Assembly: GCA_040752835.1 (NCBI GenBank)
Contig: JBFMGG010000005.1
Coordinates: 1-64,000, forward strand
Source of the DNA: Campylobacterota bacterium
GTDB taxonomy: Bacteria; Campylobacterota; Campylobacteria; Campylobacterales; Sulfurimonadaceae
Direction of reading: 5' to 3'
DNA length: 64,000 bases
In this document: positions 20,583-62,725 of the stretch, one piece after another
Numbering within the stretch: position 1 is the first letter of the stretch
Layout: every line of letters starts with the position of its first letter
Translations under genes and position numbers: made by a program
Notes under the pieces: model-generated
The model's database searches: none
What the model saw: the letters and a program-made list of their open reading frames with translations, nothing else
Told to the model about the DNA's origin: nothing

Positions 20583-21290
20583 TCACGTGTTTTTTAATCG
20601 GAATTCGAGGGTCAGGTCGATTTCCATCGGCATTGAACCTTCGAGATTTTTGGGGATGTCGATCCCCGAAGCCGATGCCACGGCGGCTTTGACCGCATTG
20701 TGGAAAACCGCTTCGCCGCTGAGGATGGTGATCCCTCCGAGAGTCCCGTTGCCGTTGAGGCTGAAGCGTACCCCCACTTCCCCTTCCATACCGCGGCGGC
20801 GGGCCGAAGAGGGGTAGCGGAGATTGTTTTGAATCGCAGAGCGCAAAGAGGCCAGAAAAGCCCGTTTTTCGGATGTGTTGTCGGGCTTGGCCTGGGGGAC
20901 CTGCACGCTCGGCACGGCCGGTGCGACGCTGCGGGAGAGGGCGGAAGTCTGGGGAAGGGGTACGGCCGGGGGAGATGCGGGTACGGCTACCGGCGCCGAC
21001 GCAGCGGGGGATTGTACCGAAGGTTTGAGGGGTGAGGGTTTGGGTGAGGGCTGCAGCGGGGGGGATGCGGGTGTACGCGGCGCGGGTTGCGGGATCGGCC
21101 GGGACGAGGCGGTCGGCGGCAGCGAAACGGCGATACGCGGTTCGGCGGGTTGAAACGACATGATCTTGAACGCTACCCGCGAGGGTTGCGCGGGAGGCGT
21201 CGTCTGGGAGAGGACCCAAAAGGCCAGTGAACCCATCAGGGCGTGAAAGGCGAGCGAGAGAGCAAACGATTTGCGTGCGGTTGTCATCAT
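20583..21290 (-). CDS. tonB: TonB-family energy transducer
   Basis: 235 residues from ATG 21290 (MMTTARKS). One N-terminal membrane helix (SFALSLAFHALMGSLAFWVL), a long Pro/Ala-rich periplasm-spanning linker (~45-145), and a TonB C-terminal domain (NLRYPSSARRRGMEGEVGVR ... GGITILSGEAVFHNAVKAAV). It energises the TonB-dependent receptor at the head of this operon. An in-frame ATG at 21302 is possible, but the AAGGG motif abuts it. No exbB/exbD is in the window. Confidence 0.85.
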   Translation of the reverse strand: MMTTARKSFALSLAFHALMGSLAFWVLSQTTPPAQPSRVAFKIMSFQPAEPRIAVSLPPTASSRPIPQPAPRTPASPPLQPSPKPSPLKPSVQSPAASAPVAVPASPPAVPLPQTSALSRSVAPAVPSVQVPQAKPDNTSEKRAFLASLRSAIQNNLRYPSSARRRGMEGEVGVRFSLNGNGTLGGITILSGEAVFHNAVKAAVASASGIDIPKNLEGSMPMEIDLTLEFRLKNT

Positions 21291-21934
21291 AGGTGTAACC
21301 ATCCCTTAAAAATAGCGATCCCTACCAGCGCCAAAAAAACGGGCGCGGCATGTCGCAAGAAGGTACGATAGGTACCTAAATGGACCAAAGATTCCTGGAG
21401 AATTTTGGTGAGAACGACCGAAAAAAACAAAAACCATAGGATGCTCGCCCCCAGCGCAAAGACCAACCCGTAGGCGAGTGCTCCGTACCAGGTGCTCGAT
21501 GCGGCGGAGAGGGTCATCATCGTGACCACCGGGGCGCAGATCGACATGGAGAGGAGCGCCCCGCTTAGATAGAGCGAGAGGGCATTTGTCGGCGTTGCGG
21601 GGGCAGAGGCACAGCATGTGGCACTGCGCCGTGCCTCCATCCAAAGGCGAAATGCCATAAAGAGGGTGATGCTGCCGAGCAGATACCCCATCAACTCCGT
21701 ATCGCGGATGAGCGATTTGATAAAAAAAGATCCGGCATAAGCGACCAGAGCGAGGGAAACGTATCCGCTGATCCGCCCGAGTGTAAGGGGGAGCAGTGCA
21801 CGGAGGCTTGCTTCGCGTGTTGCACCGTTCGCCAGCAGAATCGGAGAGACGATCGGCATGCACGAAAACATACACGCCGTTGCCCCATAGGAGAGGGCGA
21901 CAATGAAAAGGGAAAAAAGGGCCAGCGGTTCCAC
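21287..21934 (-). CDS. CcdA/DsbD-like (TauE/SafE-like) membrane protein
   Basis: 215 residues with about six membrane helices. The first helix has ATACMFSCMPIVSPIL, a Cys-x3-Cys plus Pro pattern like the thiol-transfer CcdA/DsbD transmembrane domain, and the fourth has SICAPVVTMMTL. Such proteins carry electrons across the inner membrane to periplasmic thiols. It lies 3 nt after the polyferredoxin gene and overlaps tonB, so reducing power may be used on a substrate or protein of the uptake system (inference). Confidence 0.72.
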   Translation of the reverse strand: MEPLALFSLFIVALSYGATACMFSCMPIVSPILLANGATREASLRALLPLTLGRISGYVSLALVAYAGSFFIKSLIRDTELMGYLLGSITLFMAFRLWMEARRSATCCASAPATPTNALSLYLSGALLSMSICAPVVTMMTLSAASSTWYGALAYGLVFALGASILWFLFFSVVLTKILQESLVHLGTYRTFLRHAAPVFLALVGIAIFKGWLHL

Positions 21935-21937
21935 CCT

Positions 21938-22939
21938 TTAGCCTTTCCACCATTTATCGATTTTAGAGCGTTTTTTGAACGACTCTTTGGAGGAGGTGAG
22001 GATCGTTGCGGGGCCGTATTTGAAACTCATGACCCCATCGTGCGGACAAAATTCGACGCATCGTCCGCAGAGGGTGCAGTCGGTGTGGGTGATGTTTGCG
22101 TTCACGGCCGGATTGCCGATTTCGTAAATGTCCATCGGACACGCTTTGACGCAGTTGGAACACCCTTCGCAGTAGGACGAGCCGTTTTTGACGAGGCGCA
22201 ACAGGCCGATTTTTTTGAACAGGGTCTGCATCGGCAGGATCGGGCAGATGCGGCAAAACGGCTGCCGTACGAAAAGGGCGAGGGCGATCATCAGACCAAA
22301 GAGCAAGTCGGCGATCAGCGAGAGGAGGGTGTACCCCCACCCCGCCTGGGAGATGTAGAGCTGATTCATGTCTCCGACCGCGAGGGTCGTCATGATCCGG
22401 CTGGGGCAGATGGAACAAAACGGCGATCCCCATTCGTGCCCCAGCATCCCGATTCCCGTCAGCAAAGGGAAAATAAGGACCAGAAAAAGGAAAATGAACC
22501 ATTTGACCGGGCGGATTTTGTTCACCGTTTCGACCGAGAGGGAGGGGAGCTGTTTCATCCCCAGTTTCGTCCCGATCATCCCGACGCTCTCCTGAAAGAA
22601 TCCCAAAGGGCAGAGCCATCCGCAGAACGCTTTGTTGAGGATCAGGATCAAAAGGGCGACGGTAGCGACGGTAATCGCGGTCCCCATGAGTGCCTGCATG
22701 ATTCCCGAATCGCCGGTGAAGAGGGTCGAGACGCGGTGATCCATCTGATGCTGAAGCGGGATGAGGGCGCAATAGTCCCCGCTTTTCATGTCGTAGGCGC
22801 ACGAGAGGGCCGGAAGGGCCTGGGTGAGCTTGTCGTCGGTGTAAAACGTCGTGAAAACGGTTGCCCCGTAGACGAAAAAGAAAAAAGCGGTGAGTTGGAC
22901 GACACGGCGGAGTGCCGTTACGGTCAAGAATTTATCCAT
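21938..22939 (-). CDS. NapH-type membrane polyferredoxin
   Basis: 333 residues. Four to five membrane helices with paired CxxxCP motifs facing the cytosol (CGWLCPLGF, CSICPSR, CRICPILP), then a C-terminal two-[4Fe-4S] ferredoxin domain (CEGCSNCVKACP; CTLCGRCVEFCP). NapH/CcoG-like proteins pass electrons between quinol or cytosolic donors and periplasmic metal centres. It overlaps the upstream gene by 8 nt. In this operon it could supply electrons for reducing an imported metal. Confidence 0.82.
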   Translation of the reverse strand: MDKFLTVTALRRVVQLTAFFFFVYGATVFTTFYTDDKLTQALPALSCAYDMKSGDYCALIPLQHQMDHRVSTLFTGDSGIMQALMGTAITVATVALLILILNKAFCGWLCPLGFFQESVGMIGTKLGMKQLPSLSVETVNKIRPVKWFIFLFLVLIFPLLTGIGMLGHEWGSPFCSICPSRIMTTLAVGDMNQLYISQAGWGYTLLSLIADLLFGLMIALALFVRQPFCRICPILPMQTLFKKIGLLRLVKNGSSYCEGCSNCVKACPMDIYEIGNPAVNANITHTDCTLCGRCVEFCPHDGVMSFKYGPATILTSSKESFKKRSKIDKWWKG

Positions 22940-23744
22940 TTTGTCCCCCTTTGCGGCTGCGTCGATAGAGGAAAAGTCCCCCTAAAAATCCCAGTGCCGC
23001 GGCGGCGGCACCCCATTCCTGCGATTGCCAGTGGTTGTTCGGATTGGGTGAATAGGGCATCGAAAAGGTGGTGACGTAGCGTATTCCCCCCTCTTCGTGC
23101 CGCAGGGTCAAAAGAAATTCGGAAGGTTTGTTCCCCCGGCCGGGTGTGACGTTCGCAAAATCATCGGGGAGAGTGACTTCGGCCGCACCGTCGGGTCCGC
23201 TCGTAAAGGTTTGCGCGCCGCTGCGGCGGGTTTCCAAAACAAGGGGGACATTTGTCAGGGGCTTGCCTTTGAACATCGCGACGAAACGGTACGTTTTCGA
23301 TCCCGTATAGCGGTCGTGCTCGCGGTGCAGGGGATCGGGGATAATTTCGAGGGCGGTTTTGGGCAGTGCCGTGAGACGGGTAGGCGAGACGTCGGCGGGA
23401 CGGCCGAAGAGCGAGAGGTACCGGACGGCGCTGCGGACGTTTCCGGGGGATTCGGACTCGGCTACAAGCGCGTAATATCCCCCCATTTTGGGTGGAGGCA
23501 GCATTACCGTGTTCCGGTCGAAGCGAAGGGGCCGGAGCGAGAGATCGGGGAGTACTAGCCGGGCAGTCGCGTTTCCTTCGAGATTCATCGCGGCGAACAT
23601 GGCGCTTTCCCCTTTGCCATGCCCGCCGTGGGCCGCGGCGGCCGCTTTGCCCGTGTCGCATCCGTGGGGGGCCCAGTATAAGACCCCCTCGCCGTAAGCC
23701 CAGAGGGAAGTTCCCAGCACGAGAGCCAAAAGAACGTTTTTCAT
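22932..23744 (-). CDS. exported metal-binding-like protein (DUF4198-like), C-terminal anchor
   Basis: 270 residues with signal peptide (LLALVLGTSLWAYG). A His/Gly-rich stretch AAHGGHGKGE near residue 40 could bind metal. The middle has beta-sandwich-like sequence of the DUF4198 type (YTGSKTYRFVAMFKGKPLTN). One helix near the C-terminus (GAAAAALGFLGGLFLY) is followed by RRSRKGG, so the domain faces the periplasm. It lies 10 nt after the TonB receptor. DUF4198 proteins often accompany TonB-dependent metal uptake. Confidence 0.65.
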   Translation of the reverse strand: MKNVLLALVLGTSLWAYGEGVLYWAPHGCDTGKAAAAAHGGHGKGESAMFAAMNLEGNATARLVLPDLSLRPLRFDRNTVMLPPPKMGGYYALVAESESPGNVRSAVRYLSLFGRPADVSPTRLTALPKTALEIIPDPLHREHDRYTGSKTYRFVAMFKGKPLTNVPLVLETRRSGAQTFTSGPDGAAEVTLPDDFANVTPGRGNKPSEFLLTLRHEEGGIRYVTTFSMPYSPNPNNHWQSQEWGAAAAALGFLGGLFLYRRSRKGGQNG

Positions 23745-23754
23745 GGCAGACTCC

Positions 23755-25944
23755 TTAGAATTTGATCGAGAGACCGGCGGTGTAGACGCGGCCGGGGTTG
23801 ACGGTCAACGAGAGGTCTTCGTAATCGAATACGTCGTTTTCGTCCCGGTCGCTGCTGGCTCTGGCGGTATTGAAATACTGGTTGTCCATCAGGTTGTCGA
23901 TGCGGGCGAAGAGGGAGTATTCGACATTGAAAGCTTTTGCCTTGTATTCGGCCAGCAGGTTGAGCGCTTCTTGTCCGTCGATGCGGAGGCGGTTGAGGTC
24001 GTCGGCATAGTAGTCGGAGCGTTTGGTGTATTCGGCCGAAAGCTTGAAGTTGGCGTTGTGCTGGTAATCGAGGATGACGTTAAGGCTGTGTTTGGAGGTT
24101 CTGGGGATCGTGTTTCCCGTCACGTTGTAATAGGCGACCTCGCCGGTATCGACCCGGCCATCGTTGTCGGCGTCGAAGTGGATGCCGAAATTGTCGTAAT
24201 CGGTGTATTTGGCGTCGAGGTAGGTATAGGCGACGTTACAGGAAAACTTGTCACCCAGTTTGGAGACGGCGGAGAGTTCGAACCCCTGGTGTTTCGCCCC
24301 CCCGATATTGTCCCACATGTCGGTGACGGTACTGTCGACGCTCCCGTAGTTCCCGGCCGTTTTCATGATGAAATCTTTGCGGTCGATGCGGAACAAAGAG
24401 GCTTCGTATTGGAGGCCGTTGTAGTTGCCGCGCACCCCGGCTTCGTAGTTTTTGGCGTGTTCTGGGCGGAGGTTGGGGTTGTTTTGGGTGCTTCCGTAGG
24501 TGCTGACGTTCGCGGCGAAGAGCTGTGAAATGGTGGGTGCGCGAAAACCGGTGGAGTAGTTCGCAAAGAGGCTGTTGTCGTCGCCGAGGTCGTAGTTGCT
24601 GCCGATACGGTAGGAATAAACGTCGAACGATTTGTCGAGCTGATTGTTCCGCGAGTCGGTGTAATCGAGTTTGATCGCGTCGTAACGGACGTTGAACGTG
24701 GCGCTGAGCCGGTCGGTCAGGCCGTGTTTGTACTCACCGTAGAGCGCGTAAACGTTTTCGTCGGTTTCGTTGTTGCTGTTTTCGGCTCCGGCCGATACGT
24801 AGGTATAGCTGGGGAAATAGCCGACGCGTTGCGCGACGCGGTAGAGCACCTTGTTTTTGTAATTGTTGTCCCGCAGATCGATCCCCAGCAGGGTCGCGAA
24901 GGTTTCCGTCGCCGTGCGGAATTCCCCTTTCATCCCGGTCTGTACCTGTTCGTAATAGTTGTCGTAAACGTAATCGTCATCGGTGTAGGTCCCCGACGCT
25001 CCCAGGGCATTTTTCGTTTGGGGGCTCGACCAGAAATAGGTGTCGTCGGTGTAGACGTAGCCGTTTATCAGGAGGTTGGTGTTTTCGGAAAAATCTTTCG
25101 AATAGGTGAGAAACAGCTTGAGAAGGTCGACGTCGTATTTGCGGGTGTAGTCACGACTGTCCATGTCCCCGGTGTAGACGCTTTCGGGGTTGTTCAGCGC
25201 TTCGCTGAGCCCCCCGACGGTTCCGTGGGAATCTTTTTTCCGTTTGGAAGCTTCGAGACCGAACGTCACGTCGCTCGTGTCGTCGAGGTAATACTGGAAT
25301 TTCCCGTTGACGTACTGGGCGATGTAGTCGGAATCTTCATGGTACCCGTCGGCCTTGCGCTCGCTTGCCTGGATATGGAAACTCAGATCGTCGTTGGCAT
25401 ATCCCGTTCGGGCGACAAGTTTCTGGTAGCCGAAGCTTCCCCGCTCGACGGCTGCAAAATTGTGGTTGTATTTGGCCCCTCTTTTGGTGGTGATGACAAC
25501 GGCTCCCGAGAGGGCGTCATCGCCGAACAGATACGAAGCCCCCCCCTTGATCACCTTGATCGATTCGATGTTGTCGAGATCGATGTTGACCGCCCCGGTG
25601 CGTTCAAACACGGGGACCCCGTCGATAACGACGGCAACCCCGGGTTTTTCGCCCATGTAGACCTGGTTTTCGATCCCGCGAATGTGGATTTTGAGGCTGT
25701 CGCCGGTTTTGACTTCGGTGGTGATACCGGGGATCGCATTGAGCACCTGCTGGATATTTTCGACGTGGGAATCGTCGACTTTTTGTCCGTCGATGGTTGA
25801 GGTGGAGGAGGCCTCGGTCCGGGACGAGTGGAAACGGTCGTCGATCGTTGTCGAATCGATACCGATAATGCCGAGATTTTCGGCCGCGAGGCACGAGCCT
25901 GCAAGCAGGGAAGAGAGAATAACGCTGTGGGAAATGTTGGCCAT
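23755..25944 (-). CDS. TonB-dependent outer-membrane receptor
   Basis: 729 residues with a signal peptide (SLLAGSCLA). The plug domain (~50-155) includes VLNAIPGITTEVKTGD, IHIRGIENQ and GASYLFGDDALSGAVVI; a 22-strand-type barrel follows, ending in an aromatic residue (AGLSIKF). Its substrate is not evident; the operon partners (His-rich DUF4198-like protein, polyferredoxin, CcdA-like protein) suggest a metal or metal chelate that is reduced in the periplasm. ATG 25944 with AGGAG 5 nt upstream is preferred to the in-frame GTG at 25947. Confidence 0.9.
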   Translation of the reverse strand: MANISHSVILSSLLAGSCLAAENLGIIGIDSTTIDDRFHSSRTEASSTSTIDGQKVDDSHVENIQQVLNAIPGITTEVKTGDSLKIHIRGIENQVYMGEKPGVAVVIDGVPVFERTGAVNIDLDNIESIKVIKGGASYLFGDDALSGAVVITTKRGAKYNHNFAAVERGSFGYQKLVARTGYANDDLSFHIQASERKADGYHEDSDYIAQYVNGKFQYYLDDTSDVTFGLEASKRKKDSHGTVGGLSEALNNPESVYTGDMDSRDYTRKYDVDLLKLFLTYSKDFSENTNLLINGYVYTDDTYFWSSPQTKNALGASGTYTDDDYVYDNYYEQVQTGMKGEFRTATETFATLLGIDLRDNNYKNKVLYRVAQRVGYFPSYTYVSAGAENSNNETDENVYALYGEYKHGLTDRLSATFNVRYDAIKLDYTDSRNNQLDKSFDVYSYRIGSNYDLGDDNSLFANYSTGFRAPTISQLFAANVSTYGSTQNNPNLRPEHAKNYEAGVRGNYNGLQYEASLFRIDRKDFIMKTAGNYGSVDSTVTDMWDNIGGAKHQGFELSAVSKLGDKFSCNVAYTYLDAKYTDYDNFGIHFDADNDGRVDTGEVAYYNVTGNTIPRTSKHSLNVILDYQHNANFKLSAEYTKRSDYYADDLNRLRIDGQEALNLLAEYKAKAFNVEYSLFARIDNLMDNQYFNTARASSDRDENDVFDYEDLSLTVNPGRVYTAGLSIKF

Positions 25945-25975
25945 CACCGCTCCTGTTTAGATGTAAAAGTGGCGG

Positions 25976-26049: not shown

Positions 26050-26937
26050 TTAATATAGAGCCGTATTTTCTAGTCGGCACGATTCGAGCCGCTCAGAGTC
26101 GATTAAGTAGAATGAGCCGATTATTATGAAAAGAAGGGTAGCTGCGAGAGCAAATAATAATCCTTTGTCTCTCCCTCCTGCACGTAAAATAGAGCGTTGA
26201 TCCTGATGGATCAGTGAGTCTATAGGGGATTTCGCAAAGGTTTTTTCGCATGCCACTTCACAAAGCCCGCACTGGATACAGCGTAGATCGAATCCATCTC
26301 GTATATCGAGATTAGGGATAGGGCAGATTTTGACACAGCCTCCGCAATCGGTGCAATCGTCGGTAGGATCGGAAAAGGTATAGCTCAAACGATCCTGTAT
26401 GGGGAGTATCACGCACGTCGCCCCATAGGGGCAGAGATAGGCGCAGTACCACCCCTGAACCATATACACCTCCGCAATCATCAGGAGCGAGAGGGTGATA
26501 ACCAGCCATCCCGCAAAGGAGAGATCTGTTATGGCACCGATCAACTCATCGGTGCTTATCCCATACGCCACTACTGAAAATGCCAGCATCGAAGCTAGCG
26601 CGGTGAGGATGCTCAACCCGATCACTTTGGAGGGGAGCGAATTTTTCTTTTTGCCAAAGAGGGTGAGGAGATGGGCGAAAAACGTGTTGGGACATAGCGT
26701 TCCGCAATAAAAGCGGGATAAGGTCAGAGCAGAGATGAGGGCAACCCCTACGGCGATGAGGATGAACGTCCCGATAAGGGCATAGGTGTTCATTTCACGG
26801 GCGAAACCGAACAGCTCCAGACGATCATGAGGGAAATTGAATAGCAAAAGATGGAAATCGCCGATGGTGATCCACGGAATCGCCATAAAAGGGATGAATA
26901 GAGCTAAAAATGCTCTGTTTTCACGTAAAAACCGCAT
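26050..26937 (-). CDS. NapH/CcoG-like membrane polyferredoxin (second copy)
   Basis: 295 residues. Membrane helices with YCGTLCPNTF and CAYLCPYGA motifs, then two [4Fe-4S] sites (CTDCGGCVKICP; CIQCGLCEVACE) and one C-terminal helix. It is shorter than CcoG (~470 aa), the copper-reducing cbb3-oxidase assembly factor, but has the same core. ATG 26937 shares a base with the stop of the thioredoxin-like gene (TGATG), with GGAAGGGG upstream. Codon use looks more AT-rich than in neighbouring genes. Confidence 0.8.
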   Translation of the reverse strand: MRFLRENRAFLALFIPFMAIPWITIGDFHLLLFNFPHDRLELFGFAREMNTYALIGTFILIAVGVALISALTLSRFYCGTLCPNTFFAHLLTLFGKKKNSLPSKVIGLSILTALASMLAFSVVAYGISTDELIGAITDLSFAGWLVITLSLLMIAEVYMVQGWYCAYLCPYGATCVILPIQDRLSYTFSDPTDDCTDCGGCVKICPIPNLDIRDGFDLRCIQCGLCEVACEKTFAKSPIDSLIHQDQRSILRAGGRDKGLLFALAATLLFIIIGSFYLIDSERLESCRLENTALY

Positions 26938-27422
26938 CACATCCCCTTCCGATCCATCTTCCATGTATCGAGTCGCTGATCGATGGGGAGGGTTCCATTC
27001 TCTAAGCGTCCCTCTTCGAGGCGTCCGACGAGGTCAGAAAAAATGGTTTTGTTTGGCAAAGTTTTGAACCGTTTGACAATATTTCCCTCATGATCGGCGA
27101 CGAGGATCAGGGGAACACTCTGAGCCAGACCGAACGGCAAAGCCCGCTTTTGGCTCTCGCTATCATCGACTAAGACACGATGGATAGAGAGGCGGGGATG
27201 AGATGTGTGTATTTCATCCAAAAGGGTCAAGCTTCGTTTGCAGGGCGGACACCATGAAGTGTAGAAAATGACGATGGAAGCAGAGGCTTTAGGCGAATAA
27301 TAGGGGGCGTTTTTGAGCGATAGCGGTGCACCGAAAAGTGCTAAAGACAAAAGAAAAAAAGGGAGTATTCTCAAAGGAGAACCGAATATGATTTGAATCT
27401 TTAAGGAGGTCGATTTAGGCAT
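26937..27422 (-). CDS. exported thioredoxin-like protein (CPPC)
   Basis: 161 residues with an N-terminal hydrophobic signal or anchor (ILPFFLLSLALFGAP) and a thioredoxin fold with active site WCPPC in IVIFYTSWCPPCKRS and the cis-Pro loop SVPLILVADHEG. It acts in the periplasm, probably on thiols of heme c proteins or metal sites. It is coupled to the polyferredoxin (TGATG) and lies 68 nt after the bd-like oxidase genes, so it may assist their c-type heme or metal assembly (inference). Confidence 0.78.
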   Translation of the reverse strand: MPKSTSLKIQIIFGSPLRILPFFLLSLALFGAPLSLKNAPYYSPKASASIVIFYTSWCPPCKRSLTLLDEIHTSHPRLSIHRVLVDDSESQKRALPFGLAQSVPLILVADHEGNIVKRFKTLPNKTIFSDLVGRLEEGRLENGTLPIDQRLDTWKMDRKGM

Positions 27423-27489: not shown

Positions 27490-28812
27490 TTATTTTTGTT
27501 TCAGCACCCACTCAACGAGGGTTTTCGCCTCTTCGTCGGTCACATTTTGCGGAGGCATCGGAGTTTCACCCCATTTACCCGTTGAGCCGTTCTTGAGTGA
27601 TGCGGTGAGGGTATCAGCGCTTTCACCTTTGGCGGCAACCTCTTTATACGACGGTCCTACGAGCGCCGTATCGACACTGTGACATGCCAGACACCCTTTC
27701 GAATCGGCAAGCGATACCGCCGGATCGAGAATGACTGCCGGAGCATTTTTCATCTCCTCTTTGTACGCTTTGTATTCGGTGATAACGTCGGTCATGTATT
27801 TTTCGGTCGCTTCGGCCTGGAGCTTGAGCGGCTCTTCGAAGCTCACGACGCGGATACCGTGACGGGCGGTCGCCATCAACAATACTGCGACGAGCATCAA
27901 CACAACCGCTTTGGTCGCATCCCCCATGTTCATCTCTGCTGTGCCGAAGCGTTTGAGGAGGAAGAAGAACAAGATGGTGAGCACCACCGATGCGGCGAAC
28001 GGTGCGAACACGAACGGCGTATGGATATACGCTTCGCTGATGCGCGGACTGAATGCGAAGAATACCAACGGCAAGATTGCGATGTTGACGGGTGCCGCCC
28101 ACATAAACCATTTTTTACCCTGATCGATCGCCAAGCGTCCCGCATCGGCATCTTCACCGCCCGCTTTGACCCATTTGACGCCCAAATAGATCATCACGAT
28201 CCCCGTAAAGCTAAACGCCGTGAGGAAAAAGTTAAGTAGGCGGAAGCCCGTAAGCGGGGTGAGCATCATGTCCCAGATGTTTTGAACCGTTGCAAATGTT
28301 TCCGGCTGCAAATAGAGGTTGGACATCGACATGAACACCGGAGGCAACGTATAGAACGTCAATACAGCAACCAGACCGATTGCGATATGAAACCCTTTGT
28401 GATGGTGCAATGAATGCCAGCTGAATTTGTACGCATACGAGAGCAAGAACGCAAAGATGTTCCCGTAAATGATATGCAAAATATGCGGAGAAACTTTGAG
28501 AATCGCCGTATAGAAAAATCCGGTATAAAGAACCGAAATAACGAGCAGCGGAGCGACCCCCCACAATGCCCCCATATTTTCACTGATGGTGGTGGGGTTG
28601 GTCATTTTATATGCCAATAAATCATCCGTTTTGGACTTTTTGAATACCCCGGTAATGTTGTAGAGGACCGACGCGGTCGATGCTCCGATGAGGGTATAGA
28701 TAAATGCGATGTGCACAACAAATACGATAATCCCGAGGGTATCGAAAAACCAGCCCGGAAGTCCCATCGTCGGAACGACGAGGGGGATGTCAAAAGGGAG
28801 TTTCCAGTTCAT
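27490..28812 (-). CDS. cytochrome bd-superfamily subunit with C-terminal heme c (second subunit)
   Basis: 440 residues. About eight membrane helices in a CydA-like order (for example FVVHIAFIYTLIGAS, YKFSWHSLHHHKGFHIAIG), then a periplasmic linker and a monoheme cytochrome c domain with CLACHSVDTALVGPSYK and Met-ligand region TPMPPQNV. Two such CydA-like subunits with fused heme c characterise the c-type (OR-C-like) branch of the bd superfamily. It would accept electrons from cytochrome c rather than quinol (inference). TAATG joins it to the upstream subunit. Confidence 0.75.
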   Translation of the reverse strand: MNWKLPFDIPLVVPTMGLPGWFFDTLGIIVFVVHIAFIYTLIGASTASVLYNITGVFKKSKTDDLLAYKMTNPTTISENMGALWGVAPLLVISVLYTGFFYTAILKVSPHILHIIYGNIFAFLLSYAYKFSWHSLHHHKGFHIAIGLVAVLTFYTLPPVFMSMSNLYLQPETFATVQNIWDMMLTPLTGFRLLNFFLTAFSFTGIVMIYLGVKWVKAGGEDADAGRLAIDQGKKWFMWAAPVNIAILPLVFFAFSPRISEAYIHTPFVFAPFAASVVLTILFFFLLKRFGTAEMNMGDATKAVVLMLVAVLLMATARHGIRVVSFEEPLKLQAEATEKYMTDVITEYKAYKEEMKNAPAVILDPAVSLADSKGCLACHSVDTALVGPSYKEVAAKGESADTLTASLKNGSTGKWGETPMPPQNVTDEEAKTLVEWVLKQK

Positions 28813-30206
28813 TATTTGATCTCTCCTCTTTTATTAAGTGATGCGATATAGGCCGCTAACGCGTCCTTTTCCGCTTCGGTTCCGACAAACGGAGCCATAT
28901 AAGGGGTTCCCCCGCCCGGCAGGTTGTTGATACGGTTGCGGATCGCCGCTTCGCTCCATCCCGCCGTGAGCGCTTTGAGACCGTTGATCCCGTTTTCGGT
29001 ATGGCAGGCACGGCACTCGATTTGGGCGATGGTGTGACCCACTTCCACAAGATTGGATTTATCCTCTTTGATCACTTTTTTCTCTTCATCGACGAAGACG
29101 GCGTGTTTGAGGATACCCACTTTGTTGAGATACGGTACGTCGGTAACACGGATACCGTTGGCGTACATGTAGTTGTAAATCAAGAACGGTTTACGGATGA
29201 ACTCACGGGTACGCTCTTCGTAACCCCAAAAGAGCAAGAAGGCGCTGACCATTAAGGTCGCAGCGATATAAGGCATCCGTTTCGGCGAGAAGTAGGCGAT
29301 AATCGTGGTCACAACGACCGCACCGCCGATACCGCTGATAATCATGTACATCAGATCCATTTTATCGGCGAATGCTCGGGTCATCATCGCCGTCGGGATC
29401 ATGGCACGCGCCGCTTCGGGGATTTGGAGGAGGTAGTAGTACCCCAGTGCCGCACCGACAGGAACGGTGATAATCATGATTTTGGCGAACAGTTTGATCA
29501 GCCCTTCGCGGGTGTTACGGATCGCTTCGTCTTTGCTAAACGCGGTGATGAGCCATGTCCACATGATGGCGAGTGCGGCGGCAAACGCGATGGAGCTGAA
29601 CGTTCTGAATGCCAGTCCGGGGAACCACGTCGGGTTGAAGAGGGCGTTATTGTAGTTGACGTTGCCCGGATAGACTTCCGGATCGACCCACGGCTGGCCG
29701 TCGAAATTCGGAGTCAACATAAAGCCCAAAATGGCGGTGATGATGAGCATGGTAACCCATGACGATGCGGCGTAAAATACCCCGAATCTGACCGATTTGG
29801 CACGTCCTTCGGGAGTAAGCGCTTTCTCTTTCCAGGTCATGAACCAGAAAAGGAGCAAGACAACTTCGAAGTTGAATACGATCCACTCGATAAACCATTT
29901 CCAGAAGAAGACGCGGATGAGTCCCCCGATAGCATTGGGGCTGATGATGTTGGCGTGAATCCACATACCGATACCGGTAAGGGCTCCGACGGAGGTTGTG
30001 ATGATAAAAAAGACCAAGAGCAAACGGTAGACAGTTTCATACGAAGCCATGTCGTTGCGTTTGTTGGCCCACCATGCGGCGAGTGCGAGAACGACCGATC
30101 CTCCTACCGCTCCGCCGTGCGAGACGAAAACGTGGATGATCGCATTAATCGCCATAAGCATCCGTAGCCCGATCGTGGGCATTTCGAATATGGGAAAATC
30201 GAACAT
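28812..30206 (-). CDS. cytochrome bd-superfamily subunit I-like protein with C-terminal heme c (first subunit)
   Basis: 464 residues. CydA-like helices: INAIIHVFVSHGGAVGG in helix 1 (possible heme ligand His), GMWIHANIISP ... FNFEVVLLLFWF aligning with the CydA helix that bears the heme b595 Glu. No long CydA quinol-binding Q-loop is apparent. The C-terminal ~100 residues hold a cytochrome c domain with CRACHTENG and YMAPFVG. This and the next gene probably form a heme-c-fed oxygen (or other) reductase. AAGGA precedes ATG 30206. Confidence 0.77.
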   Translation of the reverse strand: MFDFPIFEMPTIGLRMLMAINAIIHVFVSHGGAVGGSVVLALAAWWANKRNDMASYETVYRLLLVFFIITTSVGALTGIGMWIHANIISPNAIGGLIRVFFWKWFIEWIVFNFEVVLLLFWFMTWKEKALTPEGRAKSVRFGVFYAASSWVTMLIITAILGFMLTPNFDGQPWVDPEVYPGNVNYNNALFNPTWFPGLAFRTFSSIAFAAALAIMWTWLITAFSKDEAIRNTREGLIKLFAKIMIITVPVGAALGYYYLLQIPEAARAMIPTAMMTRAFADKMDLMYMIISGIGGAVVVTTIIAYFSPKRMPYIAATLMVSAFLLFWGYEERTREFIRKPFLIYNYMYANGIRVTDVPYLNKVGILKHAVFVDEEKKVIKEDKSNLVEVGHTIAQIECRACHTENGINGLKALTAGWSEAAIRNRINNLPGGGTPYMAPFVGTEAEKDALAAYIASLNKRGEIK

Positions 30207-30242
30207 ACATATCCTTTTTTATTTTAGATTGTATGCACGGCA

Positions 30243-30366
30243 ACGTCGCAGATACAGCGGAAAAACGCTATAATGTAACGTTGCTATGCAATACGATTTT
30301 CCGCTCGCCTGAGAGGTCCAATTCGCAGGGCGGGCGGAGCGTGATTGTGTGGTGTTTCTGCGACGT
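30243..30366 (-). promoter_or_regulatory. structured 5' leader of the bd-like oxidase operon
   Basis: On the minus strand ACGTCGCAGA (30366-30357) pairs perfectly with TCTGCGACGT (30252-30243), and inside it AGCGGAAAA (30305-30297) pairs with TTTTCCGCT (30264-30256). The inner loop has a TTGC-ATA-GCAA mini-hairpin. A GGCG near 30310 could pair with CGCC near 30330 and compete with the inner helix. It lies in the predicted leader, ending 37 nt before ATG 30206. No known riboswitch core is recognised. Confidence 0.5.
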
Positions 30367-59621: not shown

Positions 59622-60247
59622 GAATCGACGCACGGAATCTCGAACATTACTACGGGAGCGAATACGTTCTGCGCGGCGTCGATCTCTCGATCAAACCCGG
59701 GGGATTTACCGCGATCATCGGCGAGAGCGGGAGCGGAAAAACGACCCTGCTCTCGATCCTCTCGACGCTGCTGCGCCCCACTTCGGGGAGCGTTACCTAC
59801 GAAGGGAAAACCCTCGATGAGGTGGGGGACATCGACGTCTTCCGCCGCCGAAACGTCGGTTTCGTATTCCAGTTTCACTATCTGATCTCCTATCTGACGC
59901 TGCGCGAAAACGTCGCCCTCTCCGCGCTGGATGAGGCCCTGATCGATCCGTTGATGGAACGGCTGGGCATTTTGCGCCTTCGCGGACGCTACAGCGACGA
60001 AGTTTCCGGCGGGGAACGCCAGCGCGCGGCGATCGCCCGGGCGCTGATCAACCGTCCCTCCGTCGTTTTCGCCGACGAGCCGACGGGAAACCTCGATACG
60101 AAAAATGCGTTGGGCGTCTACGAACTCTTTCGCGAATTTTCGGGGAGCGGGACCGGTTTTATCGTCGCCTCGCACGACAAGAAGATCGCCGATTTCGCCG
60201 ATACGATCATTGAAATGGAGGACGGGATTGTTACGAAAATTTCTTGA
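59618..60247 (+). CDS. ABC transporter ATP-binding protein (LolD/MacB type)
   Basis: 209 residues. Walker A GESGSGKTT, Q-loop VFQFHYL, signature VSGGERQRA, Walker B VVFADEPTGNLD, and switch His in VASHDKK. The GNLDT form is typical of the LolD/MacB/FtsE group that pairs with FtsX-like permeases. ATG 59618 overlaps the permease stop (ATGA). Confidence 0.92.
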   Translation: MRIDARNLEHYYGSEYVLRGVDLSIKPGGFTAIIGESGSGKTTLLSILSTLLRPTSGSVTYEGKTLDEVGDIDVFRRRNVGFVFQFHYLISYLTLRENVALSALDEALIDPLMERLGILRLRGRYSDEVSGGERQRAAIARALINRPSVVFADEPTGNLDTKNALGVYELFREFSGSGTGFIVASHDKKIADFADTIIEMEDGIVTKIS

Positions 60248-61772
60248 CGCGCAGCTCCCTCTTTTGCTGCTGTGGCTGATCCTCGGGCTCTTCGCGGGGC
60301 TCGTGTACGCGCTGGAGATGGTCGGGCTCGAAGCCACGGGGACGCTGCTCTCTCCCGAACGGGCGCGCTCGTTGCACATTTCGCAGATGCTGTACGGATT
60401 TTTTCCCCTGCTCCTTTCGCTGCTGCCGTTTGCATTGTTTGAAAAAGAGGGGGTTCTCAGCGAAACGGCCCTGGCTCACCTGGCGCGCTATTTCGTCGTC
60501 TGGAACCTGTTTTTGCTCTTTATGAGCATGGCGATCTTGTTCGGCAACATTCGGGGACTGCCGTTTTACGATTTCCCTTACGAACTCAACTTTCTGCTGG
60601 CGTTCAGCGGGCTTTTTTACCTTCTGGCACTTCTGGACGCCCTGCGCCGTTACGAAAAGCGGCCCGTTTGGGTCAACGTTTCGCTCTTTGCCGTGATCGC
60701 CGCGCCCATAGCCCTCGTCGTTTTGATGAACCCCCAGTACGGGCAGGTCGAAAAGAGCCTCATCGGCCCTCACGGGGACAATACGCTGGGGATGAGTTTT
60801 ACCTTGATTCCGATCTATTACCTTCTGATCAAGCTGGTTGCGCCGAACGAATTCCGTCCCCGCGGACACTGGTTGTGGATCGTTCCGCTGGCGGGGTATC
60901 TCGTGTCGCTGGTAATCCGGAATTTTTTCCACCCCCTGAGTTACAACGAAGAGTGGTTTTTCCAGTACCTGACCCTGCTCTATCTGCCGCTGTTGTGGAT
61001 TTGGCTGAGGGATGCGGGGGTGACATTCGCCCTCAACCCCTATCTGATCCTCTCGATCGCCGCGTTCGTCTTCGTGGACGTGCAGGGGAACATTCTCTTC
61101 ATCCCCGAACTGCGGGAACTGATCCACCGCAACGACCTGGTTGTGGGGCATGCCCACATCGCGATGGGGCTTGGGGTGGCGTTTATGGCGCTCACCATTG
61201 CCCATCATCTCATGGGGCGTCTGTTCCGACGGATCCACGCACTGGTCTGGACCCTCCTGATGGCGGTAATGGCGGGGGTACTCACCGTTGCCGGAGTGAT
61301 CGAAGCGGGGCTTGTCGAAGGGGCCGTCGAGCCGATGCTCACGCTACGGGCGATCGCGGGAGCGGCATTGCTGGCGATGGTGATCGCGTTGGCGTACGAA
61401 CGGCTGGCGCTGCGTTTGAACACGCCGCTGCGGATCTATCACGCCCTCGGCGTCGCCGGCGACGCGGGAGGGGGGATTGTGTTGCTGATCGGCGGCGGGG
61501 TCCTTTTCGAACTGCTGGGATTCCGTTTTACGGGGACGTTCGAATACATCGTGTTCGCCTTTATGATCGGCACCGGGCTGGCCCACTGGGCGGGTTTGAT
61601 GGGCGACGAAGAGCGCTTCGCCGATCTCACCGCGCAGGTAAGGGCGGTGTGCGCGTCGGTATTCGCCGCGCTGTACATGGCTGGGACGCTTGACGCTCTC
61701 GCCCTTTTGGTCGCGGTCTACGACGGAGCGTTTGCTTTGCTGTACTGGCTTGTCTTGCGGAGCCGCACATGA
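60228..61772 (+). CDS. divergent heme-copper oxidase / NO-reductase-like subunit I
   Basis: 514 residues with ~13 hydrophobic helices, from TTG 60228 (GGAGG 6 nt upstream, overlapping the ATPase gene by 20 nt). His residues sit as in C-family (cbb3/NOR) subunits: H50 (RARSLHISQM, low-spin heme), H182 (GPHGDNTLGMSFTLIPIYY, CuB-like), H235 (NFFHPLSYN; the canonical HH is reduced to one His), and H308/H310 (VVGHAHIAMG, heme pair). The metal site may be incomplete. No partner heme-c subunit is beside it. Confidence 0.65.
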   Translation: MLRKFLDAQLPLLLLWLILGLFAGLVYALEMVGLEATGTLLSPERARSLHISQMLYGFFPLLLSLLPFALFEKEGVLSETALAHLARYFVVWNLFLLFMSMAILFGNIRGLPFYDFPYELNFLLAFSGLFYLLALLDALRRYEKRPVWVNVSLFAVIAAPIALVVLMNPQYGQVEKSLIGPHGDNTLGMSFTLIPIYYLLIKLVAPNEFRPRGHWLWIVPLAGYLVSLVIRNFFHPLSYNEEWFFQYLTLLYLPLLWIWLRDAGVTFALNPYLILSIAAFVFVDVQGNILFIPELRELIHRNDLVVGHAHIAMGLGVAFMALTIAHHLMGRLFRRIHALVWTLLMAVMAGVLTVAGVIEAGLVEGAVEPMLTLRAIAGAALLAMVIALAYERLALRLNTPLRIYHALGVAGDAGGGIVLLIGGGVLFELLGFRFTGTFEYIVFAFMIGTGLAHWAGLMGDEERFADLTAQVRAVCASVFAALYMAGTLDALALLVAVYDGAFALLYWLVLRSRT

Positions 61773-62725
61773 ATTTCCTCGTCATTGTCCTGAGTTCCCA
61801 GCTGCTGTATTATCTTCTGATCGCCCAGACGGGGGTGGTCGGGGCGTTCGATTCGCATATCCACGACCTTTTCACCCTCCCCATCGGCGGAATCGTCGGA
61901 GCTTTGCTCAGTGCCTACTGGCGCCATCACGAGGTTCGGCAGGAACTCTATTTTCTCTTCGGTGCCCAGATCATCATTTCGTGGTTCTACCCCAACTATT
62001 CGCTGGGGATGTTGCTGGCGCTCGGATTCGTAGTCGGGTATACGACGCCGCTGATGCTCTATCTCTTCGGCAACCAAAGCCGCCTGCATCTGGCCGTCGG
62101 GCTGGCGATTTCGTATGCGGCGGGGACGGCGTTTTACACCTATCCCTTCGGTGAACGCGACGTCATTGCCGTGGTGTTGCCGGCGATTTCCGTCGCAGCG
62201 CTTTTTTTCGCCCGAACCGGGGCGATTCACCGCCCCAAGTCGCACGCCTTCGACTGGCCCGGAGTCGGGGTGATGATGTTGTGGATCTTTGCCGATTCGG
62301 CATTGTTTGAAACCCTCAGCCGCTCGGGGGATATGGACATCTGGAGCGAATACACGCTGCTCATCGTCACGTCCCATCTGCTGGGGGTTTATCTGGCCTA
62401 CCGCTACGGGCAGGAACTGATGTCGCAGACCCGCACGGTCTGGCTGCTGTTCGCGCTGAGCTACCTGCTTTACTGGATCCGGCAGCCGATCGTACTGGCG
62501 ATTGTTTATCCGGTCGTCATTTCGTACTATAATGTTCTTTTGTTTCAAAAACTGGTTGCGATGCGGGACGTTCGGCTGATCGCCCTCTCGATGGTGGGTG
62601 TGGGCTGGATCGCCGCTTCGGCGGCAAACGGCGTGGCTTTGGCCCAGCAGCTCTGGATCGCCGCGGTTGTGTTGGGGCTTTTCGCCCTCGTTTATCCATT
62701 TATTTTCAGGAGGTATGCATTATGA
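61769..62725 (+). CDS. polytopic membrane protein, function unknown
   Basis: 318 residues with nine or ten predicted helices and few charged residues. No recognised family motif; a His/Asp stretch GAFDSHIHDLF lies between helices 1 and 2. It overlaps the heme-copper-like gene and the YceI gene by 4 nt each, so it may be a partner subunit or a transporter in the same module. Confidence 0.65.
   Translation: MNFLVIVLSSQLLYYLLIAQTGVVGAFDSHIHDLFTLPIGGIVGALLSAYWRHHEVRQELYFLFGAQIIISWFYPNYSLGMLLALGFVVGYTTPLMLYLFGNQSRLHLAVGLAISYAAGTAFYTYPFGERDVIAVVLPAISVAALFFARTGAIHRPKSHAFDWPGVGVMMLWIFADSALFETLSRSGDMDIWSEYTLLIVTSHLLGVYLAYRYGQELMSQTRTVWLLFALSYLLYWIRQPIVLAIVYPVVISYYNVLLFQKLVAMRDVRLIALSMVGVGWIAASAANGVALAQQLWIAAVVLGLFALVYPFIFRRYAL

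Follow-up and report, generated by a model that had tools for sequence, protein, structure and literature searches.

We analysed a stretch of 64,000 nucleotides (hereafter the window) from contig JBFMGG010000005.1 of a Campylobacterota bacterium, in which two adjoining minus-strand genes encode membrane proteins of 464 and 440 amino acids (aa), here called sub1 and sub2 (Table 1). Our reading, to which we give a probability of roughly two in three, is that the pair forms a two-subunit terminal oxidase of the cytochrome bd superfamily that oxidises cytochrome c and reduces O2 without copper. The two open reading frames (ORFs) share one base, at position 28812. The closest named relatives of sub1 come from metagenome-assembled genomes of Sulfuricurvum (89–98% identity), and the host of the window is itself a Sulfuricurvum in the Campylobacterota. 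An earlier note made from the DNA letters had proposed a heme c-bearing member of the bd superfamily fed by cytochrome c, and our analysis supports this proposal, with cytochrome c as the most likely, inferred donor.

Neither membrane domain is recognised by Pfam: at E 1 neither subunit matched PF01654 (CydA), PF02322 (CydB) or PF00115 (COX1), and only the C-terminal cytochrome c domains exceeded a cut-off in this search. Searching PDB sequences, the profile of sub1 (A1) and that of sub2 (A2) both found the Geobacillus CydA chain 5doq_A, at 6e-15 and 5e-8, and the two profiles aligned to each other over their length with a probability of 99.35. The AlphaFold models (mean predicted local distance difference test, 79.9 and 82.7) showed eight long helices per subunit, and their structural alignments to CydA chains covered 306–330 residues with Z scores of 26.8–29.4 for sub1 and 24.6–27.4 for sub2. 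As modelled, both subunits therefore belong to the cytochrome bd superfamily by their CydA fold with a heme-binding helical core, so that the earlier description of both as CydA-like was right as to fold. Relatives of a second type, described below, gave weak PF01654 matches under the cut-off. We also considered a CydB-like sub2 and rejected it; PF02322 was unmatched, and there was not one CydB chain among the 26 PDB sequences found at E 10. In Foldseek, CydA chains were at the top for sub2 and probable CydB chains appeared as well (9r2g_D at 9.7e-4, 7d5i_B at 0.01), as expected if CydA and CydB have a common fold. A normal CydB, noted earlier as missing, was not detected in the genome either, which is 99.5% complete and showed no match to PF01654 or PF02322 at E 0.001.

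The residues around the hemes set the two subunits apart. Ligands were counted over 85 dereplicated pairs, and the CydA comparison rows were eight sequences, all from Campylobacterota. H25, E107, E114 and E335 of sub1 align with H21, E101, E108 and E378 of Geobacillus CydA, which we take to be residues of the two active-site hemes; the E335–E378 pairing lies in a second, weak stretch of the alignment, and it is borne out by the joint alignment, because all eight CydA have Glu at that column. H25, H30, E107, E114 and R201 were kept in 85/85 sub1, and R334, E335 and R338 in all 84 with the column filled, the sole gap at these columns and at CxxCH being that of L055, whose sub1 ORF is broken (L-numbers denote the numbered loci of relatives carrying the pair). 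The invariant second histidine, H30, stands at a column that is Pro in 8/8 CydA. At the column of the heme b558 ligand His186, which R201 directly follows, none of 36 sub1 had His, and four of the 36 had Met at the column of its partner Met393; a His three residues before the b558 column was present in 22 of 85. The Lys and Glu columns of the quinol-binding Q-loop were gaps in 36/36 sub1 and in 36/36 sub2.

In sub2, H34 and R317 were each kept in 84/84, and Y101, Y126 and R191 were also conserved. The positions corresponding to E107 and E114 were hydrophobic or small in 36/36, and the one aligned with E335 varied over the 85 pairs (49 Glu, 25 His, 5 Asp), the window having His. A b558-like His was found in 50/85 sub2 (25/36 in the joint-tree set) and is replaced by Asn in the window, and the Met partner was found in 0/36. 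Thus, the ligand set is intact in sub1 and incomplete in sub2, which leads us to regard sub1 as the catalytic subunit and sub2 as a degenerate paralogue. Judged by these residues, the two proteins are not equivalent oxidase subunits: one is catalytic, and its CydA-like partner is degenerate. The earlier description therefore did not stand for the ligands of sub2, where two active-site glutamates are gone and, in the window, His stands in for the remaining one; the heme ligands are not absent from both subunits, sub1 having the full active-site set.

Both subunits end in a monoheme cytochrome c domain, as had been noticed from the motifs. The domain of sub1 matched PF13442 (E 7e-8; CRACH at residue 398) and that of sub2 matched PF00034 (E 7e-6; CLACH at residue 374), each over the curated cut-off, and both recur in relatives. 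Chance CxxCH motifs, which we had considered, were ruled out by these matches together with the conservation among relatives. The sub1 domain has a c6-like fold (Z up to 7.9), with scores below those of the sub2 domain; CxxCH was present in 84/84 sub1 sequences covering the site, and M437, the likely heme Met ligand, in 81/84. The sub2 domain resembles c551/c552, with 43–59% identity to c551/c552 structures (structure comparison rows 17–29), and was found in 18 of the 85 pairs. Fourteen of these 18 sub2 form one clade of Campylobacterota and beta/gammaproteobacteria with a support of 100, the others being L121, L142 with L157, and L123; sub2 ends without a c domain in the loci of Bacillota, Acidobacteriota and most Desulfobacterota. 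The N-terminus of CydA is periplasmic, and with eight helices per subunit both C-terminal c domains are predicted to lie in the periplasm. In eight Desulfobacterota loci (L053, L129, L131, L133, L134, L137, L141 and L148), sub1 carries a multiheme extension with eight CxxCH in total, the fused ORFs measuring 855–914 aa between stops.

The two genes recur as a pair. Of 125 loci whose sub1 was full-length by score, near copies included, 122 had a recognised sub2 on the stretch as well; the other three were L094, where a sub2-like ORF is seen by eye, L105 and L133. The sub1 and sub2 trees mirror each other (r 0.947 for the 85 pairs, compared with at most 0.095 after permutation). In a joint tree, which was quick and unrooted and gave long-branch warnings for sub2 and CydA, the sub1 (36), sub2 (36) and CydA (8) sequences each fell on one side of a branch, with support of 97, 99 and 100, so that neither subunit clustered with quinol-oxidising CydA. 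The matching trees and separate branches indicate that the split between sub1 and sub2 predates the spread of the pair, and by its sequence sub2 is an old paralogue of sub1.

Relatives occur in Campylobacterota, Pseudomonadota, Desulfobacterota, Bacillota, Acidobacteriota and Thermus. Among 298 Campylobacterota genomes, 32 had a full-length sub1, of which 3 were of the window's type and 29 of the second, lower-scoring type, the remaining hits being c domains alone; sub2 was recognised in 25 of 27 second-type loci, none of these 25 having CxxCH. At E 1e-40, sub1 was found in 8/321 genomes of the class to which a Thiothrix genome belongs and in 36/198 of the phylum of a Desulfobulbus genome, the seeds included. 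The 36 other genomes of the same genus had the window's type in 7 and the second type in 3. Copies also lie on plasmids of Agrobacterium, Methylosinus and Thermus (two records), and on these four plasmids sub1 is annotated merely as 'c-type cytochrome' or 'cytochrome c'. First- and second-type pairs at L160 and L021 and at L198 and L199 have common neighbours (an acetyltransferase, ZnuA, a Fur-like protein and a 480–513 aa protein, not all at every locus), as if the pairs had been swapped in place.

The genes around the relatives, together with the counts given below, support a link to cytochrome c without proving it. At L201, genes for Rieske protein, cytochrome b and cytochrome c1 lie just upstream of the pair, and L197 is alike by similarity. 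At L170, L172 and L173, in the class of Thiothrix, flavocytochrome c sulfide dehydrogenase (FCSD) follows just downstream on the same strand, accompanied by a c-type cytochrome gene, and at L163, L164 and L165 the pair adjoins c-type cytochrome genes. Beside the pair at L026, L166 and L167 stand two-component genes that in NCBIfam match RegB/RegA best, though below the cut-off. Two small c-type cytochrome genes lie upstream of second-type pairs in 6 of 31 loci read, from 5 genomes (L011 and L087 being one genome); one further locus has a single upstream c-type cytochrome, and L208 has both near sub2. These small cytochromes, bar the single one, all fall into one family (f20), so that an adjacent donor gene is not general. 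The window's own genome has one PF00115 oxidase over the cut-off, presumably the cbb3 subunit, and one Rieske protein over the cut-off. The pair would therefore add a further oxidase to a respiratory chain in which cytochrome c is probably reduced already.

From the sequences we infer the donor, O2 as the substrate, the kinds of heme, the path of the electrons and the enzyme's role in the cell as follows. Periplasmic reduced cytochrome c, coming from the bc1 complex and perhaps from sulfide-oxidising enzymes, would reduce the two fused c hemes. These would hand the electrons on to the pair of active-site hemes in sub1, at which O2 would be converted to water using cytoplasmic protons. In this scheme, sub1 would operate without the b558 relay and without a quinol site of the known type, and its E114, like E107 of E. 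coli CydA, to which a role in the proton path is ascribed, may serve the proton path. sub2 would take the place of CydB as a structural and possibly electron-relaying subunit, in which H34 and position 318 may bind a relay heme. Lacking a copper site, the enzyme could back up the heme-copper oxidase when sulfide or a shortage of copper disables the latter, and a copper-free cytochrome c oxidase would bring bd-type sulfide resistance to a sulfide oxidiser. Single loci suggest a link to copper sparing: on the Methylosinus plasmid (L167) the pair, a c-type cytochrome and the RegBA-like genes adjoin methanobactin biosynthesis genes, a Csp1 copper-storage gene follows the Methylotenera pair, and a TonB-copper-like receptor, below its cut-off, is near the Thiothrix pair.

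Several observations weigh against a cytochrome c oxidase. No donor gene is adjacent to the pair in the window itself, and an activity or a spectrum for any member was not found in the literature searched. Moreover, with b558 gone, the path from the c hemes to the active site could be too long unless sub2 has a relay heme. A further difficulty is the weak enrichment of such neighbours in a census of 46 real loci, leaving out plasmid loci and those from the related-locus search, against 40 control regions drawn from 36 of the same 46 genomes (four genomes twice). Within 5 kb, bc1 was found in 3/46 loci vs 0/40 controls (p 0.24), FCSD in 4/46 vs 1/40 (p 0.37), a c-type cytochrome in 14/46 vs 5/40 (p 0.067) and any of the three in 15/46 vs 6/40 (p 0.079), and these counts favour the real set because the protein queries came from pair loci, 10 of 14 from the counted 46, those for bc1 and FCSD included. 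When only same-strand c-type cytochromes were counted, they were present in 7/46 loci vs 2/80 placements within 1 kb (nominal p 0.012) and in 10/46 vs 4/80 within 2 kb (p 0.0067), values to be read with caution since several widths were tried, each control was placed on both strands and the loci are interrelated. Two-component genes were not enriched (response regulators 14/46 vs 8/40, p 0.33; kinases 6 vs 3, p 0.49), and ZnuA-like genes, the only metal genes counted, were found in 4/46 vs 1/40 (p 0.37). In reading the neighbours, 7 of 68 loci were lost when a simple ORF picker missed sub1.

Three other explanations can be considered. The pair might use its bd scaffold to reduce a small molecule other than O2, for instance nitric oxide or peroxide, likewise with electrons from cytochrome c, and serve detoxification instead of respiration. 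Such an enzyme would account for the invariant H30, Pro in the eight CydA, which implies an active site that differs from the one in O2-reducing CydA, and for the patchy occurrence in the genus (7/36 other genomes for the window's type) next to a separate heme-copper oxidase. We nevertheless consider it unlikely, because sub1 keeps all four active-site residues of O2-reducing CydA, the bc1 and RegBA-like neighbours fit a respiratory chain, and no nitrogen-oxide gene was recognised beside the pair among the listed neighbours, only part of which were named by family search.

It is also conceivable, at quite a low probability, that the pair still oxidises menaquinol, using a new site that could lie in sub2, and that the c domains just buffer or export electrons. 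Y101, Y126, R191 and R317 of sub2 are conserved, which might fit such a site, and the next-best fold for both models is that of alternative complex III membrane subunits (Z about 18), whereas the gapped Q-loop columns in both subunits and the CxxCH kept throughout sub1 speak for a different donor. That sub2 is active and heme-bearing as well, making the complex a symmetric oxidase with two centres, seems very improbable: its invariant H34 and the Glu or His that mostly aligns with E335 would suit a heme, but the loss of acidic residues at the E107 and E114 positions makes a normal di-heme O2 site unlikely. We prefer the copper-free cytochrome c oxidase in which sub1 is catalytic.

Table 1 Features of the sub1/sub2 locus in the window
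Feature	Position	Strand	Basis
sub1, CydA-like catalytic subunit (putative), 8 predicted long helices and C-terminal cytochrome c domain	28812..30206	-	ORF, 5doq_A match, fold, ligands
sub1 cytochrome c domain, residues 388-454; CRACH at 29001-29015	28845..29045	-	PF13442, c6-like fold, M437
sub2, degenerate CydA-like partner (putative), 8 predicted long helices and C-terminal c551-type domain	27490..28812	-	ORF, 5doq_A match, fold, H34
sub2 cytochrome c domain, residues 371-438; CLACH at 27679-27693	27499..27702	-	PF00034, c551/c552 identity
Thioredoxin-like protein, WCPPC, N-terminal hydrophobic segment by eye	26937..27422	-	PF00085/PF00578 over cut-off
Short CcoG/NapH-like membrane polyferredoxin, 304 aa	26050..26964	-	TIGR02745 match below cut-off
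Leader 5' of sub1 with conserved inverted repeat	30207..30330	-	Fold z -3.09

The thioredoxin-like and short CcoG/NapH-like genes that the earlier note had placed directly downstream are both real by their family matches. The former also resembles StoA (NF041202, 3e-8, below its cut-off). CcoG is a cupric reductase; the latter product, which matched TIGR02745 with E 6e-27 and 94.7 bits vs a cut-off of 316.7, is by this comparison only a CcoG-like relative, falling short of the CcoG family itself. Both genes lie behind the pair in all ten same-type Campylobacterota loci read far enough (L015–L018, L020–L023, L160 and L161), and no match to either was found in the beta/gamma loci L024–L030 and L032. 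It is plausible, as a guess, that they form a dedicated route holding both CxxCH sites reduced for heme attachment. The inverted repeat in the leader of sub1 folds better than shuffled sequences and recurs in 7/8 Sulfuricurvum loci, where its stems are nearly invariant, making covariation uninformative; a known riboswitch was considered and dismissed, as the leader had no Rfam match.

Elsewhere in the window, a plus-strand gene at 60105–61772 encodes a 555-aa membrane protein with a PF00115 match of 1.2e-4, below the cut-off, and adjoins one for a 318-aa hydrophobic protein that Pfam does not match (61769–62725, plus strand). A minus-strand cluster at 20583–25947 contains a TonB-dependent receptor, a TonB protein and a NapH-like polyferredoxin, and two of its ORFs, 22932–23744 and 21306–21953, match no family.

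Compared with known systems, the pair is like canonical CydAB (Geobacillus, 5doq) in the fold of both subunits and in the active-site His/Glu set of sub1, and differs from it in lacking the Q-loop Lys and Glu, the b558 His in sub1 and matches to PF01654 and PF02322, in having C-terminal cytochrome c domains, and in having a CydA-like partner instead of a CydB-like one. The OR-C family of Murali et al. (2021) is said to lack the quinol site and to contain a c-type heme; our pair agrees on both traits, compared by description and not by sequences. It probably belongs to OR-C, an assignment that follows from the reported c-type heme and should be taken as a pointer and no more. A passage of PMC13189123 splits the superfamily into qOR, OR-C and OR-N and places members whose CydA has a quinol site in qOR, and the OR-C name also appears in PMC10839748, where the lines on OR-N propose cytochrome c as donor and describe paired CydA paralogues. 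A bd-like protein of Nitrospina is described in a passage of PMC3578206 as lacking quinol-binding residues and having 14 predicted transmembrane helices, three of which replace the Q-loop. The pair thus resembles OR-N and the bd-like oxidases of Nitrospira and Nitrospina in its missing quinol-binding residues, its paired CydA paralogues and its proposed cytochrome c donor, but differs from the 14-helix Nitrospina type in having eight long helices per subunit in the models, plus a c domain. Like cbb3-type cytochrome c oxidase, which contains a copper site, it would be an oxidase of the membrane that binds c hemes and draws its electrons from cytochrome c, although its fold is unrelated.

A CydA-like protein with a c domain has been noted in print (PMC5900883, section 9 and a footnote of Table 2), and that section treats it without a partner subunit, a ligand analysis or a donor. 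The different tasks of an intact and a degenerate subunit, the capture of a c551-type domain by sub2 in a single clade, and the neighbouring sulfide and bc1 genes seem to be new; no text on them, and no biochemical study of a bd enzyme with a c domain, was found in the open-licence literature searched. The E. coli bd oxidases withstand sulfide that stops the heme-copper bo3 oxidase, according to the abstract of PMC4815019. We tentatively go one step further, to a version that we consider less likely than not: a heme-only, copper-free cytochrome c oxidase that skips b558, in which electrons reach the bd site, directly or via a heme in the degenerate sub2, from two covalently bound c hemes, one belonging to a captured copy of a soluble c551-type donor, and which serves as a sulfide-tolerant substitute for cbb3.

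The family spans several phyla, yet none of the Pfam models picks up the membrane domains of the pair in the window. To our knowledge, every purified bd enzyme oxidises quinol. With its ligand set intact and a c domain on each subunit, the Sulfuricurvum pair offers a direct way to test which donor is used. If the pair is fed by cytochrome c, it would show that a bd scaffold can serve where the chain reaches high potential, a position that copper enzymes otherwise fill, and if the fuller version is true, microaerophiles exposed to sulfide or starved of copper would gain a sulfide-tolerant, copper-sparing substitute for cbb3.

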